From contig NZ_CP073315.1 of the NCBI RefSeq assembly GCF_018140925.1, positions 2,046,001-2,110,000 of the forward strand: a stretch of DNA of 64,000 bases. Reading direction: 5' to 3'. The notes beneath the pieces were generated by a model. It saw nothing but the letters and a program-made list of their open reading frames with translations, did not search any database and had not been told where the DNA came from. A program made the position numbers and the translations under genes. Source of the DNA: Psychrobacillus sp. INOP01. GTDB lineage: Bacteria; Bacillota; Bacilli; Bacillales_A; Planococcaceae. Below are positions 1,402 through 33,159 of this stretch, piece after piece; the stretch's first letter is position 1; each line of letters opens with the position of its first letter.

Positions 1402-2115
1402 ATGAAAAAGATTGAATCTAACCATTTCGTAAATCATCTATATATCAAAAAACAAATGAGTAGGAAAAAAACGATTATGATTTTCCATGGATGGGGATCG
1501 AGTGTTCATAATTATAAACGACCTGCAGAAAATCTTTCGACGCTTGGTTTCAAAATCATTGTTCCAGAAATAATATTTCACGATAGCAGAAGTAAGTTCG
1601 AAAATCATTTTCTGAAAGAAGTTACTCAAAAATACTTCTGGAAGACAATTTTTAGAAGTATTGATGAAGCTTCACTCCTTTTTGAAGAATTAGGCATTCT
1701 TAAGGAAGATACTATTCTTATGGGGATATCTATGGGAGGATTTATTGCAAATGGGATATATGCAAATGGTCAAAATTTTGCTGGCTTAGTTAATATTAAT
1801 GGATCCGGGTCATTTCTTTTGTCAGAAAAAATTTTCCGACAAAATGACCACCGTCCGAGGTTGTCGATTGCAGAGACTAAAGAAATAAATATCTATAATC
1901 CAATTGATAAAATCGCATGCCCTTCCCCCATATTATTAATGCACGGAGAACAAGATACTATTGTTTCAATTGAAGGTCAGAAAGATTACTTTAACTTTTT
2001 GACTGAAAGTGATACTGTACATGATGTAATTTTTAATATATACAAAAATGTAAACCACTCCTTTTCTGAAGAAATGATGGAGAACTTAAAACAATGGTTA
2101 GTAAAGAAATTCTAA
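1402..2115 (+). CDS. alpha/beta hydrolase
   Basis: A 237-aa alpha/beta-hydrolase fold protein. FHGWGSS near residue 29-35 is the oxyanion-hole strand, GISMGG (about 108-113) is the nucleophile elbow with Ser as nucleophile, MHGEQDTIV (about 179-187) carries the acidic residue, and NHSF (about 217-220) the catalytic histidine. All triad members are therefore present. There is no signal peptide, so it is cytoplasmic. It resembles serine aminopeptidase S33/dienelactone-hydrolase type proteins; the substrate is unknown. It follows the AraC-type regulator on the same strand after about 120 nt and is followed by a clear terminator. The ribosome binding site is weak (AAGAGA). Confidence 0.8.
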   Translation: MKKIESNHFVNHLYIKKQMSRKKTIMIFHGWGSSVHNYKRPAENLSTLGFKIIVPEIIFHDSRSKFENHFLKEVTQKYFWKTIFRSIDEASLLFEELGILKEDTILMGISMGGFIANGIYANGQNFAGLVNINGSGSFLLSEKIFRQNDHRPRLSIAETKEINIYNPIDKIACPSPILLMHGEQDTIVSIEGQKDYFNFLTESDTVHDVIFNIYKNVNHSFSEEMMENLKQWLVKKF

Positions 2116-2141
2116 GTGACAATAGATATATGCAAAAGTAT

Positions 2142-2175
2142 AAAGCATCAGTCCTAGAACCGATGCTTTTTAATA
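2142..2175 (+). terminator. rho-independent terminator after the hydrolase gene
   Basis: Stem AAAGCATC / GATGCTTT with a 12-nt loop, followed by a T-rich tail. It lies about 25 nt after the hydrolase stop. Confidence 0.7.
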
Positions 2176-2242
2176 GTCGATATAAGCGAAATCATTTTCT
2201 TTTATCTATCAATAAAGATGAATGTATTTAAACTTAAACTAT

Positions 2243-3475
2243 TCAAACTCTAGTACTTTTCAAAATAGTTTTATATAAGTAAAGAACTGGAGTTAATAAA
2301 ACTGCACTTACAACGATGGCTGTTTTTATTGTAAAACCCGTTGCTATATATCCAATCATTGGACCCCCTCCAATTTGACCTATGGCATCTACTTGGCCTT
2401 TTACTGAGAAGAATGTTGCACGTGTAGAGGATTCAAGTATGATTTTGTTTAACCATATGTCCTCCAGTGGATACATAACTTTTCTTGTCACTTGAATAAC
2501 TATATAAAAGGCTAACAATCCAATCACAAATGAGGAAAAAGCAAAGCCAAGCAATGACAGGATTATAAATAAACTTCCTATAAATAGAGCTATATAAATA
2601 TGTCTAAGATTCTGATGTATAGAACTTCGATTCATTAAATGGAGCGCTACAAAAGAAACAAGTACAATAATGAATTGAATAGCTCCTGTAATCACAACTA
2701 ACCTCTCTTCAGGCAAAGCCGCTATATTTGATACTTCAAAAAAATGAGACATCCACAATCGATCAAAACCTTCACTATAAACCCCTACAAATAAAGCAAT
2801 TAAAAATAGCATTCTCATAATGAAGCTAGCTTTAGAATAAAAAATAATTTTGCTCATATTACCTTTCATGTTTTCCCAAGTCGACATTCTTTCTATCTTA
2901 TTCAGGGGTTTGAAGTTCTCTTCTTTCATAAAGATGATTAAATATACCGCTAACCCAATCATACATAGTCCACCAATAATGATTGGTAAACTAATCATAA
3001 AATAACCCGTTACAATACTTAAAGGTATGGCTATGACTTGCCCAAGACTACCGGCCTTTGCCCCTCTTATAAATGCTAATGAAGCACGCTCTTCTCCTAT
3101 TTCATCTGCAATCCATGCTTGCTGAGAACCACTTGTAAACGTATACCCAATTCCCCATGCGACCTGGGCCAATAGTACAGTTGCAAAATAAGGGAATAGC
3201 CCCTCCATTAAAAAACCAATTCCTATTAGAAAGTAACCAATTATTATAGACAACTTTCGACTTTTTAAATCGGAAACTACTCCGGTAGGAATTTCAAAAA
3301 GAAATACAGATAGCTCCAAAACTGTTCCCACTAAAACAAGCTGAAATGGATCCAGCATTACAACCTTTACGTGATACAACAAATTCACAGTAAAAATAAA
3401 AGTAAAAAATAGTTGTGATAAAAAGCATGTGTAGATGTAAACTTGATATGGATTTCTTGTTCTTATTAAATTCAT
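2243..3475 (-). CDS. MFS transporter (drug/metabolite exporter-like)
   Basis: A 410-aa, 12-segment membrane protein of the major facilitator superfamily. The loop 2-3 motif appears as FEIPTGVVSDLKSRKLSII (about 61-79), the typical G-x-x-x-D-x-x-x-R/K signature. Segments are distributed in two halves separated by a charged central loop near residues 185-205. The start ATG 3475 is preceded by GAGGGGGC. Relatives in Bacillales are annotated as multidrug or macrolide-type efflux proteins, but the sequence gives no substrate. It is convergent with the hydrolase gene and divergent from the cobalamin riboswitch unit. Confidence 0.8.
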   Translation of the reverse strand: MNLIRTRNPYQVYIYTCFLSQLFFTFIFTVNLLYHVKVVMLDPFQLVLVGTVLELSVFLFEIPTGVVSDLKSRKLSIIIGYFLIGIGFLMEGLFPYFATVLLAQVAWGIGYTFTSGSQQAWIADEIGEERASLAFIRGAKAGSLGQVIAIPLSIVTGYFMISLPIIIGGLCMIGLAVYLIIFMKEENFKPLNKIERMSTWENMKGNMSKIIFYSKASFIMRMLFLIALFVGVYSEGFDRLWMSHFFEVSNIAALPEERLVVITGAIQFIIVLVSFVALHLMNRSSIHQNLRHIYIALFIGSLFIILSLLGFAFSSFVIGLLAFYIVIQVTRKVMYPLEDIWLNKIILESSTRATFFSVKGQVDAIGQIGGGPMIGYIATGFTIKTAIVVSAVLLTPVLYLYKTILKSTRV

Positions 3476-3610
3476 TTTCTTGCCCCCTCGAATTAATTAT
3501 AGTGAGGGAATTTACTAAGTTCTTATCCAAATTTGCGGTTATTTACAAAAATATATTCTTCTATTTCAGATATGTTATAGTAAAAGAACAATTGAATAAT
3601 GTGTAGATTT

Positions 3611-3783
3611 AGGTGTTCTTTTGCGAAAGCGAATGAACTTAAAAGGGAAGTCGGTGAAAAACCGACGCTGTCCCGCAACTGTAAATGGGAGCAATTCTAC
3701 TACATCCACTGTAAGTTATTATGGGAAGGATAGAAACGCGATGATCATGAGCCAGGAGACCTGCCTATTTCAAGTACACACCA
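3611..3783 (+). promoter_or_regulatory. cobalamin (adenosylcobalamin) riboswitch aptamer
   Basis: Conserved cobalamin-riboswitch blocks occur in order: AGGTGTTC (3611), AAAAGGGAAGTCGGTGAAAA (3641-3660), GCTGTCCCGCAACTGTAAAT (3667-3686), GGGAAGGATAGAA near 3723-3735, and the B12 box AGCCAGGAGACCTGCC (3750-3765). The 5' AGGTGT can pair with ACACACC at about 3776-3782, closing the aptamer. Such elements repress B12 transport or synthesis genes, or B12-independent isoenzymes, when coenzyme B12 is plentiful. The genes directly downstream are small and unrecognised. Confidence 0.93.
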
Positions 3784-3818
3784 AAACCCTACGCGGATAG
3801 GAGGTGTTAAGTGCAGCT

Positions 3819-3953
3819 ATGAACAAGCAAATGCTTGAAATTGCTGTCGTACGAAAAAACGCAATGAAAACACTGGAGAAATTGACTCTTTTTCAGTGTG
3901 CATTTTATTACGTTTCAAACGTTTCGACAACAACTAATTATACTAATAACTAG
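3819..3953 (+). CDS. 44-aa ORF between the cobalamin aptamer and its terminator
   Basis: An ATG-started 44-codon frame beginning MNKQMLEIAVVRKNAMKTLE and ending in a Thr/Asn-rich tail. A good Shine-Dalgarno (AGGAGGTG, 3800-3807) lies 11 nt upstream and just after the aptamer, so ligand binding could occlude it. The stop codon overlaps the first bases of the terminator hairpin. I recognise no family. It may be a genuine riboswitch-controlled micropeptide, a degraded remnant of a B12 gene, or chance: coding potential of such a short frame cannot be judged by eye. Confidence 0.3.
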   Translation: MNKQMLEIAVVRKNAMKTLEKLTLFQCAFYYVSNVSTTTNYTNN

Positions 3954-3985
3954 CATCTTCTTTGAAAAAAGAGGATGCTTTTTTT
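3952..3985 (+). terminator. intrinsic terminator, possible cobalamin riboswitch expression platform
   Basis: Stem AGCATCTTCTTT / AAAGAGGATGCT followed by a run of T. It lies about 170 nt after the aptamer and about 20 nt before the next gene, so it may be the transcriptional switch or simply the end of the riboswitch transcript. A second possible hairpin (ACACTG...CAGTGT, about 3869-3900) precedes it. Confidence 0.75.
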
Positions 3986-4006
3986 GTTGAGGAAAGGAAC
4001 TTTGAA

Positions 4007-4234
4007 ATGACAATTGGCACAAAAGAAGATTATTTAGAGAAATTTAAATATGTATTAATGACAAACTATATAGGAAGCTCATCCACTTCACTTGATTTGA
4101 TGTTGGAAGCCTTCGAAAGAGAAATTGCTAATATCACAGATATGCGTGAACAGGATAAAACTATGTATACACTTAATTTACAAAAAGCATTTAAACAAAT
4201 TAAAAGCGAGATTTCAGGAGTTACAGAGGATTAA
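4007..4234 (+). CDS. small protein of unknown function downstream of the cobalamin riboswitch
   Basis: A 75-aa soluble, acidic and probably helical protein starting MTIGTKEDYLEKFKYVLMTN. I preferred ATG 4007 (GAGGAAAGG about 9 nt upstream) to the TTG at 3962, which lies inside the terminator hairpin. No membrane segment, signal peptide or cysteine motif is visible, and I do not recognise the family. Its position behind a cobalamin riboswitch and its terminator makes B12-responsive expression likely if no other promoter lies between. It is followed at once by a copy of the dispersed structured repeat. Confidence 0.55.
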   Translation: MTIGTKEDYLEKFKYVLMTNYIGSSSTSLDLMLEAFEREIANITDMREQDKTMYTLNLQKAFKQIKSEISGVTED

Positions 4235-4238
4235 ATAA

Positions 4239-4400
4239 GAAAAACTGGGCAAATGCCCGGTCCTTTAAATTTAAAACCTTTTTCTAGCGTTTTCAGTAGG
4301 CTTTGGACGGACTTGTTACTATATTGATTCTTTAGATAGGTTGGTCACGAAGACATTGCCACACGAGGTGGCGCTCTTAGCCTTTGTTCCTTTTCCCGAA
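4239..4400 (+). repeat. dispersed structured repeat, family 1, copy 1 (decayed)
   Basis: This begins GAAAAACTGGGC 4 nt after a stop codon and shares the family's left half: GGTCCTTTAAATT, TTTCTAGCGTTTTCAGT, GGCTTTGGACGGAC and CTATATTGATTCT, seen also near 12.97, 25.24 and 37.68 kb. The central hairpin and right arm are not preserved, so this is a degenerate or 3'-truncated copy; the right boundary is approximate. Confidence 0.6.
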
Positions 4401-4444
4401 ATGGAAATCACTAGCATTATTCTTTCTTTAAAGTACCTTGGACC

Positions 4445-4487
4445 AAAAAAGCGAACCGATTTTATATTGCATCGGTTCGCTTTTTTT
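4445..4487. terminator. bidirectional terminator
   Basis: AAAAAAGCGAACCGAT (4445-4460) pairs with ATCGGTTCGCTTTTTT (4471-4486) around a 10-nt loop. It serves the minus-strand 58-aa gene and anything read from the left. Confidence 0.85.
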
Positions 4488-4762: not shown

Positions 4763-6686
4763 ATGCACAAAACCATTGGAATTCTTGCACATGTAGATGC
4801 TGGAAAAACTACTTTTTCGGAGCAGCTGCTATACCATACAAATACAATTAGAAAGAGGACGAGTTGACCACCAAGACTCGTTTCTTGATAGTCATACTAT
4901 AGAGAAAAATAGAGGAATTACTATCTTTGCCGATCAAGGAATCTTTTCCTACAATAATTCTACGTATTATATTATCGATACTCCTGGGCATGTCGACTTT
5001 TCTCCAGAAATGGAACGGGCAATTCAAGTGATGGACTATGCCATCATTATTATCAGCGCGGTAGATGGGATAGAAGGACATACAGAAACTGTTTGGCAAT
5101 TACTACGAAAACACAAAGTACCGACCTTTTTCTTTATCAATAAAACCGATTATGAAGGTACTGATCCAACAAGCATTCTTGCTGAAATACGTGCCACCTT
5201 ATCGGAGGATGTATGCGATATTACTAATACTTTCGATGAAGAACTAATTGAATTTATTGCGGAGCGCGATGAAGCCCTATTAGAAACATATATGGACAGC
5301 GGATTTGATAAGGACTTATGGACACAAGTGCTTCAGCGCATGATAAAGGAAAATAAAATCTTCGCATGTGCTAGTGGATCAGCATTGAAGGATATAGGAA
5401 TCGTAGAATTTCTAGACAAGCTAGATTTATTAACCACAACCTCCTATAAAGCGGATGAAGTATTTGCTGCGCAGGTTTATAAGATTCGACACGATGAAAG
5501 TGGAAACCGCGTTACCTTTTTGAAATTAGTCAACGGAACATTAAGAGTCCGCGATAGTGTAACCTACAACGACCAAACCGAAAAGATAACACAAATCCGC
5601 TTGTACAGCGGCATTAGGTTTAAAACCGTAGATCAGGCTTTAGCAGGTGAGCTTGTTGCTGTGACGGGATTAACGAGTGCCTCCATTGGGGATGGAATCG
5701 GCGCTATTTCCCAGAAAACTGAGTTCGATATGATTCCCACATTAAAATCTAAGGTTCTATTTGATGCTTCTGTCCATGTAAAGGAAGTATTGCGTTGCTT
5801 TAAATTATTAGATGCAGAAGATCCCTCATTACGTGTATTTTGGGATGAGTATTTTCAAGAAATACATGTTCATGTAATGGGAGTTATCCAGTTAGAAGTA
5901 CTCGAGCAAATCGTTTTGGAGCGTTTTGGTTTTCACGTATCTTTTGGAGAGCCTAAAATTCTTTATAAAGAAACTATTGATAACTCCGTTCGTGGATATG
6001 GGCATTTTGAACCTTTAAGACATTACGCAGAAGTTCATTTATTAATCGAGCCTGCCCAGAGGAATAGTGGAATTACATTTGCAAATATGTGCCACGCGAA
6101 TGATTTGTCAATTGGCAATCAAAACCTAGTTAGACACCACCTTTTCGAAAGAGATCATCACGGTTTACTAACAGGTTCTGCCTTAACTGATGTGAAAATT
6201 ACTTTGCTCACAGGTCGCGGACATAATGAACATACACATGGCGGTGATTTTCGAGAAGCAACGTATCGTGCACTTCGTCAAGGGTTAGAAAAAGCAGAAA
6301 ATATCCTTCTAGAGCCATTTTACGATTTTACGATTAAAGTAAATATGGACTTAATAGGTCGAGTATTATCCGATATTCAACAAGCAGCAGGAACCTTCGA
6401 ACCTCCGGAAAATATTGGATATAAAGTTCTCATAAAAGGAAGAGTACCCGTGGCAACCTTTATGAATTACAGCACAACTTTTGCCTCCTTTACGCATGGC
6501 AAGGGTTCTCTTAGCTTAGTTTTTGGAGGATACGATCGTTGTCATAATACTGAGGAGATTATCGTAACACTTGGTTATAATAAGGAAGCAGATCCTGAAT
6601 ATACGTCTACATCTATTTTTTGCGCTAAAGGAAAAGGATATCCCGTCTATTGGGATGAGGCGGAAGCAGCTATGCACTGCCTATAA
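4763..6686 (+). pseudogene. TetM/EF-G-like ribosomal protection GTPase, frameshifted near the N-terminus
   Basis: The gene starts at ATG 4763 (SD AGAGGTGAG) and reads MHKTIGILAHVDAGKTTFSE, the G1 P-loop of translational GTPases, then hits TGA at 4865. The remaining roughly 610 codons continue in the +1 frame with GRVDHQDSFLDSH, RGITIFADQ (G2), DTPGH (G3) and NKTD (G4), then EF-G domains II-V to 6686. Restoring two bases (a GA near 4850) would give IRERGRVDH, the usual family sequence. The body is otherwise uninterrupted over 600 codons, so the lesion is very recent or a sequencing error. Relatives are TetM/TetO-type ribosomal protection or EF-G-like proteins of Bacillales, which use GTP hydrolysis to act on the ribosome; resistance cannot be asserted. 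Confidence 0.85.
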
Positions 6687-6704
6687 CTTAAGGAGGAATA
6701 GTTC

Positions 6705-7175
6705 ATGATTGCTACGATTCAAAAAGAAAACGGTAACTATATCGCACGATACGAAAGACAATTCCAGCATTCTGTAGAAACAGTATGGGCCATGCTAACG
6801 AATAATACGAAGCTCAAACAATGGTTTGATGAGCTGCATATAGTAAATCTCCGTAAAGGTGGAATTATTAAGTTCGATATGCAAGATGGAACTTTTATCG
6901 ATATGAAAATCCTTGATTATGAACCATTGAAAACTTTAGCATTTGAATGGGACGCAGATATCGCTAGATTTGAATTATCCTCTTTATCAAATGGCTGCAA
7001 ATTAGTATTTATAGAAACAATTTCTACTATAACGGATCATACTCCCAAAGATTTAGCTGGATGGCATCTTTGTTTAGATGCTATAAAAGCATTGCTAGAT
7101 GGAGATTCCATTAAGCGCGAAGATGAATGGAAAGTCTGGTTCGAGAAATACAAAGAGCTTCTAGATAATTTGTAA
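6705..7175 (+). CDS. SRPBCC/AHSA1-family protein
   Basis: A 156-aa START-like (SRPBCC, Hsp90-activator AHSA1 type) protein. FQHSVETVWAMLTNNTKLKQW (about 21-41) is the characteristic N-terminal segment, and FEWDAD, a central beta-sheet and a C-terminal helix (AGWHLCLDAIKALLDG) follow. The fold binds hydrophobic ligands in a deep pocket; specific function is unknown. AAGGAGGAATAG lies just before ATG 6705. It starts 18 nt after the GTPase pseudogene, so the two probably share a transcript. Confidence 0.8.
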   Translation: MIATIQKENGNYIARYERQFQHSVETVWAMLTNNTKLKQWFDELHIVNLRKGGIIKFDMQDGTFIDMKILDYEPLKTLAFEWDADIARFELSSLSNGCKLVFIETISTITDHTPKDLAGWHLCLDAIKALLDGDSIKREDEWKVWFEKYKELLDNL

Positions 7176-21678: not shown

Positions 21679-21836
21679 CTCTTATCTCTCAGAAAGTAAA
21701 CTTTCTGATGGAATTAGCACCGTGCCTTACGGAATTTAACATTCCGGCGCATAAAGCGCCCCGTCTCACAACGGTATTACGGTCGGTTGCTGGGCGTCAT
21801 CGGGCCATTATCCCTCTGCCTGCTCTTGATAAGAGT
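21679..21836 (-). promoter_or_regulatory. SAM-I riboswitch (S box) controlling mtnK-mtnA-ABC operon
   Basis: Minus-strand S-box blocks in order: CTCTTATCAAGAGCAGGCAG, AGGGATAATGGCCCGATGA, CGCCCAGCAACC, a P3 arm, CACGGTGCTAATTCC, a P4 hairpin (CAGAAAGTTTACTTTCTG) and AGAGATAAGAGG closing P1. High SAM favours the downstream terminator, so the operon is expressed when methionine/SAM is low. Confidence 0.96.
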
Positions 21837-21958: not shown

Positions 21959-21993
21959 CAATATAATTTACTAAATACAAACTGAATATTTTT

Positions 21994-22098
21994 TCTTATT
22001 TAGAGCAGGTGGAGGGACAAGCCCTACGATACCCGGCAACCGATTCAATTGTGAACACGGTGCTAATTCTTGCAGCCAATGGGCTGAGAAATAAGAAG
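21994..22098 (+). promoter_or_regulatory. SAM-I riboswitch (S box) controlling mtnW-X-B-D
   Basis: TTCTTATTTAGAGCAGGTGG, AGGGACAAGCCCTACGATAC, CCGGCAACC, CACGGTGCTAATTCTTGCAG and GAGAAATAAGAA form the S-box order P1-P2-P3-P4-P1. It is compact, with a short P3. It faces away from the other S box, so both halves of the salvage pathway share the same signal. Confidence 0.96.
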
Positions 22099-28907: not shown

Positions 28908-28981
28908 GCAATATGTATAGTTGCCCTAAATCCTCTACTTTTCCCTAAATGAGATAGCACACCATTATAAACTGGGATGTT

Positions 28982-29132
28982 TATAGTGGACAGTCCTGCA
29001 ATTATTAACTGCAGACCCAGCAAGTAATACCGAGCAATATTACAAACTTCGGCGACATTTCCTTCTCCCTAGTATCATAGCTTCTCAAACTCCACTAAGG
29101 ACTGTTAAATATCGCGCCTCTACCTCACTATA
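28982..29132 (-). promoter_or_regulatory. lysine riboswitch (L box)
   Basis: The minus strand shows GAGGTAGAGGCGCG, TTAGTGGAGTTTGAG, AGAAGGAAATGTCGCCGAAG, TTGCTGGGTCTGCA and GCAGGACTGTCC, the ordered conserved blocks of the L box. P1 is closed by TATAGTG (29126-29132) with CACTATA. Lysine binding favours the terminator at 28881-28907. It controls the ABC importer downstream. Confidence 0.95.
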
Positions 29133-29321: not shown

Positions 29322-30722
29322 ATGGGATCTGTCCAGCTTACAGATCACAAAGTAACTGAAGAGATAGACAAAGATTATTCATTAGAGAAGGTACCCCGTA
29401 GCCAAAGAAATATGGGTTGGTTAAGTATAACCAATATTACATTAGGAATAGCCACTGCCATTTTTTACTTTCAAATGGGGAGCGTAATGGCTCTTCAATT
29501 TGGGGCACTTAATGCTATTATCTCCTCCATTTACGCAATAATAGTTGCCGGTATACTAGGAACCTTTATTGCTTACTTATCTGCAAAATCTGGTATGAAT
29601 GTCAATTTATTATCCAGAGGAGGAGGTTTTGGCTATATAGGTGCTTCCTTAACGTCCTTCCTCTACGCGACAAACTTTATTATGTATTGTGCATTTGAAG
29701 GTCTCATTTTAGTTTCCGCGGTTCACACCTTCTTCCCCTCCCTACACGAATGGGCGCTAATCATTTTCTTCGGGTTTATCGTTATACCTTTAAATTGGTT
29801 TGGAATCAAACAGCTAGATAGAATACAAAGATGGTCTTTACCTATATTTGTTATTTTCTTAATAACAGCAATTGTTATATCGTTTTATGAGCCTCCTGTA
29901 TTTGAAGGACCATTTTGGACTTATCTACCTGAAGGAGTACAAGTTGGAGGACAAGCTTTGCTTCTCTGCATAGGAATGCAACATGGAATAATGGGTCTAA
30001 CAGCCCTCATAGCATCTGATTATGCACGTTTTCTAAAACCGAAAGATATTAAAATTGGATCTGTCGTAATCGGTTTTGTTCCGCAAATTTTCTGTTTCGG
30101 CATTATGGGTGGTCTAGGCATATGGTTTGGAGTTCGCTTAGGAGAACCGAATCCTGGAGTTTATATTGTAATGCTTCTCGGCATTGGCGGAGCATTGTTC
30201 ACTATGTTAACCCAATTACGTATAAATATTACCAATATATATAGTAGTTCCCTATCTTTATCTAACTTCTTCGAAAACGTATTTAAATTTACACCTGGTC
30301 GCCGTTTTTGGGTTGTCGTAAGTGGAATCAGTGCAATAATCCTAATGCTAGGTGGAATTGTTAACCATTTAGATACCGCTATGACATTTCAAGGTGTATT
30401 TTTACTTTCATGGGCAGCTATATTAGTTACCGATGCATTAATCGTTAAAAAAGCTTTAAAAATTGGGAATGGTTATTATGAGGATCGCCAAGAATATTTA
30501 TACAAATGGAATCCTGTTGGAGTTGTGTCTTTGATAATATCTAGTGGTCTAGGCACATTTGCAGCACTAGGTTATATGGGAACATTTTTACAAAGTACCG
30601 CTGCTTTTTTTGCAGCTATTCTAGCAGCAATTCTTACAGTTATTATTGCGGTATTAACAAAAGGTAAGTATTACAGTAAAGGTGCTGCGGATGATATTCC
30701 CAAAGAAGATTATATTGCATAA
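29322..30722 (+). CDS. NCS1-family cytosine/purine permease-like transporter
   Basis: A 466-aa membrane protein with about 12 segments. The N-terminus (SLEKVPRSQRNMGWLSITNI) has the P-x-x-x-R-x-x-x-W pattern of NCS1 carriers, and GGGFGYIGASLTSFLYATNF matches their third segment. NCS1 proteins import cytosine, purines, hydantoins or thiamine with H+ or Na+. No purine riboswitch or catabolic gene is adjacent, so substrate is open. ATG 29322 follows an AATAGGAGTTGATATT site. It is monocistronic, with a terminator about 70 nt downstream. Confidence 0.8.
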   Translation: MGSVQLTDHKVTEEIDKDYSLEKVPRSQRNMGWLSITNITLGIATAIFYFQMGSVMALQFGALNAIISSIYAIIVAGILGTFIAYLSAKSGMNVNLLSRGGGFGYIGASLTSFLYATNFIMYCAFEGLILVSAVHTFFPSLHEWALIIFFGFIVIPLNWFGIKQLDRIQRWSLPIFVIFLITAIVISFYEPPVFEGPFWTYLPEGVQVGGQALLLCIGMQHGIMGLTALIASDYARFLKPKDIKIGSVVIGFVPQIFCFGIMGGLGIWFGVRLGEPNPGVYIVMLLGIGGALFTMLTQLRINITNIYSSSLSLSNFFENVFKFTPGRRFWVVVSGISAIILMLGGIVNHLDTAMTFQGVFLLSWAAILVTDALIVKKALKIGNGYYEDRQEYLYKWNPVGVVSLIISSGLGTFAALGYMGTFLQSTAAFFAAILAAILTVIIAVLTKGKYYSKGAADDIPKEDYIA

Positions 30723-30960: not shown

Positions 30961-31125
30961 TCACTTTCTTTTTTCTATACTATTGTTAACAACATTTGCT
31001 ATATTGTGAATGGTATTTTCAAGAGAGTCTATTTTATTTTCAAATCGATGCAATAAATAAATAGTGACTACAATGGGAAATCCAAAGTTTCCAATTAATT
31101 GTACGATGTTTTCCTCCCCGATCAT
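30961..31125 (-). CDS. YvrJ-family small membrane protein
   Basis: A 54-aa protein, MIGEENIVQLIGNFGFPIVV then TIYLLHRFENKIDSLENTIH. It has one membrane helix followed by an amphipathic/coiled-coil tail, the pattern of the YvrJ family (holin-like small proteins of unknown function). ATG 31125 follows GAAAGGGGGATAAAC; the longer frame from 31155 lacks a site. Confidence 0.75.
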   Translation of the reverse strand: MIGEENIVQLIGNFGFPIVVTIYLLHRFENKIDSLENTIHNIANVVNNSIEKRK

Positions 31126-31155
31126 GTTTATCCCCCTTTCCTTATTATTTACCAT

Positions 31156-31544
31156 TCCTCAAGCAATTGACATACCTGTTGAGTAAAACCACATAACGTT
31201 TGATTTGTATTCTAAGAAACTCACTTGTCCAAAACGCATAAAATTGTACCTCGTGTTATTCCCTGATTTCCCTTCGATTAAGTTAATTGATATTTATTAG
31301 ATTATACTAAATATTTATCATTTTTAGAATAATTATAAGTTGGGAAACATGCTCTAATTTATTAGATTATTAATATATAACTTAAACAACTTTCATAACT
31401 AGATGAAATTTTAATATTTCTTAATAAAAATTGGATAATTACTATACCTTTATTCTACAATTTTCTATTGCTTTCTATATTTTTCTACACATTGTTAGTC
31501 GTTTTGAGTCGAACGATTGAAAAAGGATATTTAGTTTTTTTCAA
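31156..31544. other. AT-rich intergenic region between divergent genes
   Basis: About 390 nt of very AT-rich DNA between the yvrJ-like gene and the XRE-TPR regulator. No ORF with a ribosome binding site and no riboswitch is visible. It presumably holds both promoters. Confidence 0.5.
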
Positions 31545-31565
31545 GAATTAGTACAATACTAATTC
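31545..31565. promoter_or_regulatory. perfect 9-3-9 palindrome, candidate operator of the XRE-TPR regulator
   Basis: GAATTAGTA, spacer CAA, TACTAATTC: an exact inverted repeat just upstream of the ribosome binding site (AAGGGGTGAA) of the regulator. It includes TACAAT, a possible -10 box. Position and symmetry suggest autoregulation by a dimeric helix-turn-helix protein. Confidence 0.6.
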
Positions 31566-31581
31566 ATAAGGGGTGAAGAAA

Positions 31582-32886
31582 ATGAGTAGTATAGGTCATA
31601 TAATAAAATCAGAAAGAATAAACCAAAGTATGAAACAAACCACATTGGCCAAGGGAATCTGCTCTACATCCTACTTAAGCAAAATAGAAAATAATTTAAC
31701 TGTTCCAAGTGATGAAGTAATAACGTTTTTACTCAAAAAACTAAATATAGAAATAGATCAAGTATCAAGTGAAAAGGAAAATAAAATTATTACATCGTTA
31801 TCCGAATTGTACAAAACCGCAGTTTTGAAGAGAGACAAAAAATTTATAAGAGAATCCTTGCATAAATTCACTTATCAAAAGCTATATTTTTTACAACTAA
31901 ATAATTATTACAGTTATCACCTTTATCTGTTTCGTCTCCTATTAATACTAGATGACGAGGAGGATAAACTACAATCCACCTATAACATAATTGTGAAAAT
32001 AAGAGATGATATAGACGAAAAACAAAAGTTTATAAATAATCTAAATTTGGGCATTTATAGTTATTTGGAGGGGAATTATCAAGATGCATTAAGTCGATTA
32101 GAGATGTCATTAGAATACGTAAATAATGGACTCCATGAAGAATGGGAAATAGCAGATTTTTATAATGTACTAAGCTTAACTTACTCTAAGTGTGATGAAT
32201 TTTTTAATGCAATAAATTACGCGTCAAAATCATTACTATATTATAAAGACAATCTTTTATTTGAAAGAGCAATTGATAATTATATCGTTATAGGAATTGC
32301 ACATAAAGAAATGAGAAAATTTCAAGAAGCAGAAAAGAACTATAATTTAGCTAGAAAACTAGCAATAGATTATAAACTGATTAATTATGAGGAGGTGATT
32401 TATCAAAATCTAGGTTCATTACATGCAATTCAAGGGAGTCATGAAAAAGCAATTGAGTTTTATAAGCTTAGTCTAAAAATTAAAGAAGAAGATTGTAATG
32501 CCGAAGGGTATTTACTAACAACTCTATCTATTATAAAACAGTATTCCAAACAGTCTGATCATCAACAGGTCCTCAAATGGTGTCAGAAAGGCTTAGATAA
32601 AATAGTAGAAGGAAAAAATTCTAAAAAAGAATATATTTCTTATTATTATCACCTTGAAATATATAAGCATTACCACAATTTAACCGACGAACTTGAAATG
32701 GTATTAAGGGAAGCCATAAGTTATTTTGAAAACGAAAAAGATGAACGTCATGTTCAAAAGTATTCTATATTATTGGCAGATTACCTTTTTAAACATCACA
32801 AATTTAAAGCAGCAAGTTTATATTATCAAAAAGCAAATAAGATTCTTTTTAAACAAAAATTTATTGTGAAATGGGAGGATTTATAA
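31582..32886 (+). CDS. XRE-type regulator with C-terminal TPR domain (RNPP/NprR-like)
   Basis: A 434-aa cytoplasmic protein. Residues about 3-62 are an XRE helix-turn-helix (IGHIIKSERINQSMKQTTLA, STSYLSKIENNLTVPSDEVI). From about 100 to 430 the chain is helical with TPR-like repeats, for example IGIAHKEMRKFQEAEKNYNL and NLGSLHAIQGSHEKAIEFYK. This architecture and length match the RNPP receptors (NprR, PlcR, AimR relatives), which bind re-imported signalling peptides in the TPR groove. ATG 31582 has AAGGGGTGAAG upstream. The 3' end supplies the Shine-Dalgarno (GGGAGG) of the next gene, a 43-aa exported peptide starting one base after its stop. Confidence 0.85.
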   Translation: MSSIGHIIKSERINQSMKQTTLAKGICSTSYLSKIENNLTVPSDEVITFLLKKLNIEIDQVSSEKENKIITSLSELYKTAVLKRDKKFIRESLHKFTYQKLYFLQLNNYYSYHLYLFRLLLILDDEEDKLQSTYNIIVKIRDDIDEKQKFINNLNLGIYSYLEGNYQDALSRLEMSLEYVNNGLHEEWEIADFYNVLSLTYSKCDEFFNAINYASKSLLYYKDNLLFERAIDNYIVIGIAHKEMRKFQEAEKNYNLARKLAIDYKLINYEEVIYQNLGSLHAIQGSHEKAIEFYKLSLKIKEEDCNAEGYLLTTLSIIKQYSKQSDHQQVLKWCQKGLDKIVEGKNSKKEYISYYYHLEIYKHYHNLTDELEMVLREAISYFENEKDERHVQKYSILLADYLFKHHKFKAASLYYQKANKILFKQKFIVKWEDL

Positions 32887-32887
32887 A

Positions 32888-33019
32888 ATGAAAAAGAAGA
32901 TTGTGTTGCTAACTTTATCAAGTATTGTCATCCTGACTTTGAGCTTTACAACAAACATAAAACAAATGAGTGAAAACGAAACTCCAAGACCTACATCAAT
33001 AGAGAATAAATTTATTTAA
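32888..33019 (+). CDS. putative signalling-peptide precursor (43 aa)
   Basis: A short gene not easily found by ORF length filters. The product starts MKKKIVLLTLSSIVILTLSF: three lysines, a 16-residue hydrophobic core, then a polar tail of about 20 residues rich in Ser/Glu/Pro/Asn and ending in -NKFI. This is the layout of PapR/NprX/Phr-type precursors: Sec export, then proteolysis to a short C-terminal peptide that returns through an oligopeptide permease. Shine-Dalgarno GGGAGG lies 10 nt upstream, inside the regulator gene, and only one base separates the two genes, so translation is coupled. The mature peptide cannot be deduced. Confidence 0.8.
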   Translation: MKKKIVLLTLSSIVILTLSFTTNIKQMSENETPRPTSIENKFI

Positions 33020-33126: not shown

Positions 33127-33159
33127 AAACCGGCTATCCAAATGGATAGCCGGTTTATT
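33127..33159. terminator. terminator after the regulator/peptide pair
   Basis: AACCGGCTATCC / GGATAGCCGGTT stem with a short AAAT loop and TTATT tail, lying between convergent genes. Confidence 0.8.

Follow-up and report, generated by a model that had tools for sequence, protein, structure and literature searches.

Within a 64-kb window of Psychrobacillus sp. INOP01 (the window being the whole stretch of DNA analysed, part of a 4.30-Mb single-contig genome), a gene for an XRE-type regulator is followed one base later by a gene for a peptide of 43 amino acids (aa). We interpret this cassette, with a probability of about 0.85, as a quorum-sensing pair of the RRNPP type, in which an NprR-like receptor with a helix-turn-helix (HTH) domain and nine tetratricopeptide repeats (TPRs) is encoded together with its own propeptide. 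The interpretation draws on what can be read in the sequence: the gene pair itself, its conservation, coding selection on the small gene, the predicted receptor fold, a ribosome-binding-site signature and the neighbourhood. The cassette contains the following features.

31582..32886, plus strand: XRE-HTH and TPR receptor, 434 aa, with ATG at 31582 and stop codon at 32884-32886
31603-31758, plus strand: HTH_3 domain match of the receptor, residues 8-59
32873..32878, plus strand: propeptide ribosome-binding site GGGAGG, inside the receptor codons TGG GAG GAT TTA (WEDL)
32888..33019, plus strand: propeptide gene, 43 aa with KKK, a hydrophobic core and a polar tail
32984..32998, plus strand: conserved pheromone core PRPTS, propeptide residues 33-37, from comparison of the closest propeptides (group 1, below)
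33127..33156, plus strand: terminator-like stem-loop 3' of the cassette

The original prediction had placed a 434-aa XRE-TPR regulator one base before a 43-codon gene, with the ribosome-binding site of the latter inside the former and a terminator behind both, and the sequence bears out each of these statements. An alternative GTG start at 31573 would lengthen the receptor by 3 aa. At the N-terminus of the propeptide, basic residues and a hydrophobic stretch are recognized by a simple filter, and a Sec-type signal is thus putative.

Conservation and selection of the receptor-propeptide pair

The receptor is present in 18 of 19 genomes of the genus, and one of these (G018) has an additional, more divergent copy (L021, at 51% identity); these 19 receptor loci constitute group 1. 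A scan reaching close relatives only found receptors 83-90% identical at 4 loci among Psychrobacillus species. Direct search with the peptide found it in 15 of 200 genomes of the family, every one in the genus, and reading the open reading frames (ORFs) beside receptors added three diverged genus members, so that a propeptide accompanies the orthologous regulator at 19 of 19 group-1 loci. By comparison, a signal-like small ORF at the same spacing occurs after 13 of the 3688 TAA triplets of the window and after 2 of its 55 long ORFs, the cassette being one of the 2. The pairing therefore exceeds chance.

Selection on the short frame was assessed from five close orthologues of the same length, summed over ten pairs. 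The proportions of synonymous (pS) and non-synonymous (pN) differences were 0.472 and 0.123, compared with 0.201/0.185 and 0.185/0.196 in the +1 and +2 frames, and substitutions on codon positions 1, 2 and 3 numbered 71, 38 and 145. The value of pN was 0.095 in the signal part (residues 2-24) and 0.155 in the tail, and it was lowest of the parts compared in PRPTSI (0.032). On these counts, the propeptide is evolving as a protein under purifying selection.

The conserved part of the tail is internal. PRPTS occurs in 14 of the 19 group-1 propeptides, with PRVTS, PRITS, PRPTT, PRPTG and PRPTF found once each, and the C-terminal end is often FI, YI or FL, with TN and KK also occurring. The original prediction had suggested a distinct specificity group marked by the ending NKFI. 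The tail does have a core of its own, which fits such a group, but the emphasis on NKFI needs correction because that core is PRPTS and the ends vary. The specificity code thus seems to lie within the tail, as in NprX, whose active form SKPDIVG comes from inside the tail of a 43-aa precursor and not from its end (PMC4147580; the same heptapeptide is given in PMC5641580). The mature peptide probably lies within or around PRPTS, and PRPTS, TPRPTS, PRPTSIENKFI and ENETPRPTSIENKFI are candidate forms for synthesis.

The pair is also found beyond the genus. A profile of the 19 receptors matched relatives at E <=1e-15 in 132 of 261 family genomes, many of the weaker matches being partial. We fetched 60 regions, nearly all from the top of the profile list and hence not a random sample, and scored 94 receptor rows, which include L001-L031 and leave out the repeats L103-L105 (INOP01 and G018) and a stray, L120. 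The filter found an adjacent propeptide in 69 of the 94 rows, and reading by hand raised the intact total to 71 by adding L023, whose five repeats make it too long for the filter, and L110, which is one lysine short. A peptide frame with an early stop follows the receptor in L022, and a repeat-bearing signal-like ORF lies 251 bases downstream in L109. Peptide-bearing pairs were read in six genera. All 69 filtered propeptides hold a core of the form P-x-[PILVM]-x, a pattern drawn up after reading the sequences, compared with a mean of 8.3 and a largest count of 15 for shuffled tails. In several relatives, the propeptide consists in part of repeated units that carry this core: five tandem DKP[DE]ITS units in L023, DEEFPPPLAP-like units in a Mesobacillus plasmid propeptide, three copies of HPKIV in each of L161, L162 and L172, NSPGIKSL-like units in L155, and PLDEVPEIAF-like units in the signal-like ORF of L109. 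Such repetition marks the mature region of the propeptide.

A further signature links the two genes. GGGAGG lies nine bases ahead of the peptide start, in the codons for the receptor C-terminus, W-E-D-L. Where an intact peptide gene adjoins the receptor, 67 of 67 rows scored (65 by script, plus L023 and L110) use GAG for the Glu of this tetrapeptide; of the peptide-bearing rows that the script left unscored, L015, L072 and L097 have GAG by eye and L003 lacks the motif. At the other Glu codons of peptide-bearing receptor genes, the share of GAG is 25.6%. Of the 21 rows without a nearby peptide gene, 20 could be scored: GAG was found once (L067b), GAA 12 times and a Gln codon (CAA) 7 times. The WEDL-type motif is missing from the peptide-less L113 and from L109, and in L022, where the peptide frame is broken, the Glu codon is still GAG. 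Since the WEDL-type tetrapeptide is retained in orphans too, it is a protein feature, while the codon choice tracks the presence of the peptide, in rows that are related by descent and not independent. Because the ribosome-binding site of the peptide sits in the C-terminal codons of the receptor, pheromone and receptor output would be tied.

Related loci were seen alongside. The INOP01 genome contains two receptor paralogues besides the window copy. One belongs to group 2 (L002/L103, L022-L031), a second receptor-propeptide pair in the genus, whose core KP[KDES]IT resembles the KPDIVG of NprX. The third and more distant paralogue, L104 (C1:1552000-1565000), has its receptor at 5822-7132 (plus strand) and a 59-aa signal-like ORF with the tail GEEFPPILQ; genes nearby at 1967-4453 (minus strand) encode asparagine synthase, transglutaminase-like and PqqD-like proteins, a set which we take to resemble a lasso-peptide cluster, and a quorum-regulated antimicrobial is a lead there. 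In another genus, L064-L069 and L071 have tandem receptors, an upstream copy with no nearby peptide and then a copy with one, the upstream copies being apparent orphan receptors. On a Mesobacillus foraminis plasmid (L144), a related receptor is followed by a repeat-rich 137-aa propeptide, and a non-ribosomal peptide synthetase gene is nearby.

Fold and kinship of the receptor

The receptor matches both HTH_3 (E 1.5e-8) and TPR_12 (E 1.2e-10) over cut-off, and at 434 aa with TPRs it falls within the 250-500 aa expected of RRNPP(A) receptors, just as the 43-aa product of the neighbouring gene falls within the 10-100 aa expected of their propeptides. Its PHROG match, phrog_5208 (E 3.1e-19), has no stated function. 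A structure model built from the 19-row alignment (predicted local distance difference test score, pLDDT, 89.2) shows 18 helices after the HTH part, that is, nine predicted pairs. By Z, the best match of the model is apo-NprR (Z 30.2, root-mean-square deviation 3.7, 348 residues, 64-423), with RapI at 28.6 and other Rap proteins at 27; the part that aligns with NprR and Rap structures is residues 62-427, in alignments of about 340-355 residues. The model says that the fold is a TPR superhelix of the RRNPP-like kind. What decides between NprR and Rap is the HTH domain, which this receptor has and Rap proteins lack (PMC9765709). The combination of HTH domain, three-helix bundle and nine-TPR fold that characterizes the NprR-NprX type is found here through the HTH_3 match and the model. 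A dual function of the receptor, as Spo0F phosphatase and as activator, also belongs to that type.

By sequence, the receptor stands apart from NprR itself. Profile matches ran from Rap3T (1.6e-12) and NprR (1.8e-8) to PlcR (0.091), with designed TPR proteins among those in between, and BLAST against the TPR part of NprR (306 residues only) gave 23% identity over 199 residues, short of the NprR naming rule of >=30% identity and 80% mutual coverage to the reference; that rule is printed for naming a cluster and is applied to its best match, not to each member (PMC10075063). A search of the INOP01 genome with the NprR TPR part gave no match at 1e-10. A quick tree was built from 123 rows. It unites 93 receptors of the family in one clade (98), with a Priestia plasmid receptor as sister (87), and places NprR outside that clade among other Bacilli receptors; owing to long branches the deep branching order is uncertain, and L021 is not cleanly grouped with the remaining 18. 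No sign of a phage origin was seen, matches in three phage records being only of HTH length, nor of a plasmid origin, as each of the 17 plasmid records that match the receptor is below 60% identity. We conclude that the receptor is very probably of the nine-TPR RRNPP type and works like NprR-NprX, without belonging to NprR proper by sequence or by clade.

NprR-NprX of the Bacillus cereus group likewise has an HTH-TPR receptor of similar length with a 43-aa propeptide directly downstream, an active core inside the tail (SKPDIVG as against PRPTS) and sigma-H involvement (PMC4147580). It differs in its sequence, its separate position in the tree, its core and its neighbour, which is nprA there and yvrJ and gltP here; nprR-nprX is described as not autoregulated (PMC4147580). 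Rap-Phr shares the TPR superhelix, and most phr genes have a sigma-H promoter (PMC4147580), but Rap lacks the HTH domain. PlcR-PapR, also invoked in the original prediction, shares the HTH-TPR receptor with an adjoining small exported peptide; PlcR has a five-TPR fold (PMC12700828), as against nine helix pairs in our model, and is not the nearest relative. Leaderless-peptide systems with RopB-type receptors in Lysinibacillus sphaericus (PMC10518010) are of a different kind.

A further counterpart is on a plasmid of Priestia koreensis FS-1 (NZ_CP061869.1), whose receptor is 31% identical over 96% of the query and is followed by a propeptide with the tail EEEFPEPTVAQVLI; it differs in being plasmid-borne and sister to the 93-row clade with a support of only 87. 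Two NprR-NprX systems have been named in a survey from a plasmid of FS-1 (PMC10075063), and, judging by strain and plasmid, this locus would be one of them. The cassette, originally called new, is therefore new only at the subfamily level. NprR-type receptors are reported from 21 genera (PMC9765709), and the main texts of PMC10075063, PMC9765709 and PMC12700828 do not mention Psychrobacillus. We found no publication joining quorum sensing and NprR with Planococcaceae, presumably the name of this family. Judged by titles and abstract openings, the literature on Psychrobacillus and quorum sensing held nothing resembling the cassette, and none was found on ribosome-site coupling in Rap-Phr.

The promoter region and the divergent genes

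The 390-nt flank upstream of the cassette is AT-rich, as had been noted, and turns out to be the intergenic spacer between the cassette and a divergently oriented yvrJ. It contains the following elements.

30961..31155, minus strand: divergent yvrJ (PF12841, E 5.4e-18)
31305..31309, no strand assigned: distal TACTA on the divergent side, a possible second binding half-site
31339..31347, no strand assigned: conserved intergenic element GTTGGGAAA, exact at 14 of 18 loci, with GTTGTGAAA in 2 more
31507..31513, plus strand: AGTCGAA, Spo0A-box-like, upstream of the sigma-H-like site, a lead only
31522..31550, plus strand: sigma-H-like promoter AAAGGATAT-N11-CAAGAATTA, scored against the consensus RNAGGAWWW-N11-12-RNNGAAT
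31545..31565, no strand assigned: perfect 9-3-9 palindrome GAATTAGTA CAA TACTAATTC, putative receptor operator

The best sigma-H-like site lies 60-63 bases before the start at 16 of 19 group-1 loci, in the form of an AAAGG-type element (GAAGG in one), an 11-base spacer and GAA[TC]TA, and the score of the window site was reached by 0 of 60 base shuffles. Sigma-H-like matches from other genera, like those from groups 2 and 3, were mostly no better than shuffles and were rejected, L063 and L116 (0/60) being exceptions. A sigma-A-type scan was uninformative, with 17 sites against 13.5 expected. Upstream, the Spo0A-like box, which we compare with TGTCGAA as the presumed Spo0A box, is exact at 2 of the 19 loci, reads AGTCGAA at 8, is weaker at 7 and is absent from L004 and L021. 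Spo0A is encoded in the INOP01 genome, and a Spo0A link is a weak lead.

The predicted palindrome is confirmed and covers this promoter. The GAAT of the -10 element forms its first four bases, and binding of the receptor there should therefore obstruct the promoter or reshape it. From their positions, autoregulation through the palindrome and control of the divergent promoter would both be expected. In the window, the palindrome is the sole match at <=3 mismatches (0.13 expected) and has 0 mismatches; 13 of 100 shuffles hold one match. The genome search called for by the original prediction found it unique in INOP01 at 0 or 1 mismatch, and weaker copies were no commoner than those of a reversed control. 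Over seven genomes at <=2 mismatches there were 73 copies against 62 for the reversed control, with the largest excesses in G009 (15 versus 7) and G007 (12 versus 7). We rejected the palindrome as a regulon marker. As targets we also rejected an exact extra copy in G014, which sits inside a coding frame, and a 1-mismatch copy in G001, which belongs to a hairpin lying between transport-like genes; from further 1-mismatch copies (another one in G014, two in G016) no target was drawn.

Other parts of the intergenic region are conserved. A TACTA near -25 (-36 in L019 and L020) and a second TACTA 200-280 bases upstream are each kept at 18 of 18 loci compared, counts that have no chance control, and the segment around the distal one is among the best conserved of the region (mean identity 0.87 versus 0.53 overall). 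The best-conserved blocks include CTAAAT-TACTAAA and GTTGGGAAA; a genome-wide pattern based on GTTGGGAAA gave no signal, with 6 and 4 matches against 3 and 9 for controls.

Within flanks of 1.5 kb, a divergent yvrJ adjoins the receptor at every group-1 locus but L021 (18 of 19), and gltP lies downstream at 6 of 19 (L001 and L004-L008, with short pieces only at L006 and L007). Eleven loci (L010-L020) have a divergent unit of the form SigO-like / yvrJ / RsoA-like, where SigO-like denotes a gene with region 4 in this gene company. In the two units read, the sigma-like gene with region 4 encodes 174 aa and the RsoA-like genes encode 74 and 61 aa, the latter matching NF041489 at E 1.3e-9 and 3.1e-8, below the curated cut-off. 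In the lineage of the window (7 loci), yvrJ stands alone, with no sigma-factor gene at the locus; in the INOP01 genome the only SigO-like similarity was to region 4 (1.5e-6), with no match over the full length. YvrJ, too, has no match in G004, the sole genus genome lacking the receptor. The split sigma factor of Bacillus subtilis consists of SigO and RsoA, and yvrJ is one of the genes that it transcribes (PMC8103513). The relatives of our cassette resemble that system in having a region-4 sigma-like gene, yvrJ and an RsoA-like gene, and differ in that, at 11 of 19 loci, these genes diverge from one for a pheromone receptor; the window has only yvrJ at the locus. No work joining RsoA with RRNPP or NprR was among the matches listed (best 10 of 64). 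Given the conservation of yvrJ and of the sigma-containing operon, a split sigma factor is a candidate target.

Farther upstream, a 466-aa ORF at 29322-30722 (plus strand) is transporter-like by eye and has no significant Pfam or NCBIfam match. An Rfam scan of the cassette at gathering threshold gave no match. Elsewhere the window holds two S-adenosylmethionine (SAM) riboswitches close together on opposite strands, at 21679-21835 (minus) and 21993-22097 (plus), a lysine riboswitch at 28947-29130 (minus), a cobalamin riboswitch at 3594-3782 (plus) and a Bacillaceae-1 RNA at 4338-4396 (minus).

Mechanism, alternatives and implications

In the mechanism that we propose, the sigma-H-like promoter would drive joint transcription of receptor and propeptide, and the propeptide would be translated from the ribosome-binding site in the C-terminal codons of the receptor. 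By analogy with known systems, it would be exported by Sec, trimmed to a short PRPTS-containing peptide, re-imported by oligopeptide permeases (5 matches to oligopeptide-binding proteins over cut-off in INOP01) and bound in the TPR groove, altering receptor assembly and DNA binding. The receptor would then act on its own promoter via the palindrome over the -10 element, and probably on the divergent yvrJ promoter, which in more distant orthologues would govern the SigO-like/yvrJ/RsoA-like operon.

Several observations weigh against a quorum-sensing pair of this kind. No peptide gene was seen within 400 bases downstream, the only side searched, in 21 of the 94 rows (L114 has just 105 bases there), so the receptor fold alone does not imply an adjacent ligand. 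The NprR-NprX complex scores Z 25.6 against the model, below eukaryotic LGN proteins (26-27), and the TPR fold alone is therefore not decisive; by Foldseek E-value, RapI ranks 1st and NprR 12th. Shuffles reach the sigma-H score at L007, L011 and L012 in 13, 14 and 10 of 60, and the site is not the best-scoring one at L016, L017 and L021. The palindrome is perfect at just 7 of 19 loci, and its weaker copies in INOP01 (<=3 mismatches) number 4 against 7 for the reversed control, or 7 against 11 in a second count, which gives no sign of a regulon other than its own promoter. On the other side stand the adjacent propeptide, its purifying selection, a predicted fold closest to NprR and Rap, and the repeated core units in relatives, which together support the RNPP-type reading originally put forward.

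Two other roles for the genes have to be considered. The small protein might be a membrane or secreted accessory, a regulatory microprotein acting in the producer cell on the receptor or elsewhere; a signal-like N-terminus alone is no proof of release, and the hydrophobic segment is constrained too. We think this very improbable, as the tail core is repeated in tandem after a single signal segment in relatives, which is typical of processed pheromones, as PRPTSI is more constrained than the whole tail, and as the receptor has, by its model, a pheromone-receptor fold. The receptor, for its part, might work mainly by protein contact, as a Rap/NprR-like phosphatase or response-regulator anti-activator whose DNA binding is only autoregulatory. 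The long alignment to NprR and Rap structures and the lack of a second close operator copy in INOP01 fit such a role. It is nevertheless unlikely, given that the position of the Rap catalytic glutamine (presumed from RapH) is, as read by eye, not conserved in group 1, that the HTH region is largely invariant, and that TACTA elements flank both sides of the divergent region.

Whether the divergent genes belong to the system is a closer question. The conservation of yvrJ, its co-absence with the receptor in G004 and the conserved intergenic blocks make the divergent operon the best candidate target. The link is confined to the genus, however, and L063, the nearest receptor outside it, has other genes and no yvrJ in about 1 kb upstream; moreover, INOP01 has a second YvrJ homologue elsewhere, and three genomes carry a second SigO-like/YvrJ/RsoA-like set away from any receptor match. 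That yvrJ and the sigma genes are unrelated to the receptor, their proximity reflecting shared ancestry in one genus, thus has a little under an even chance; gltP, at 6 of 19 loci compared with 18 for yvrJ, and the blocks kept even where the sigma gene is absent speak against it. More tentatively, and as a possibility that we rate as somewhat doubtful, the receptor may control a split sigma factor of the SigO/RsoA type, cell density switching on sigma and YvrJ from the shared divergent promoter region and pheromone translation being hard-wired through the C-terminal codons of the receptor; in the lineage of the window, where sigma is missing from the locus, yvrJ would be the remaining output.

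For the family, these results extend NprR-like pheromone signalling to several of its genera. About 70 receptor-peptide pairs and some 20 peptide-less relatives provide material on how codes diverge and receptors become orphaned, and GAG in WEDL offers a simple sequence mark that separates live pheromone pairs from orphans. The divergent operon, in turn, offers a way to test whether quorum sensing is connected to a split sigma factor.

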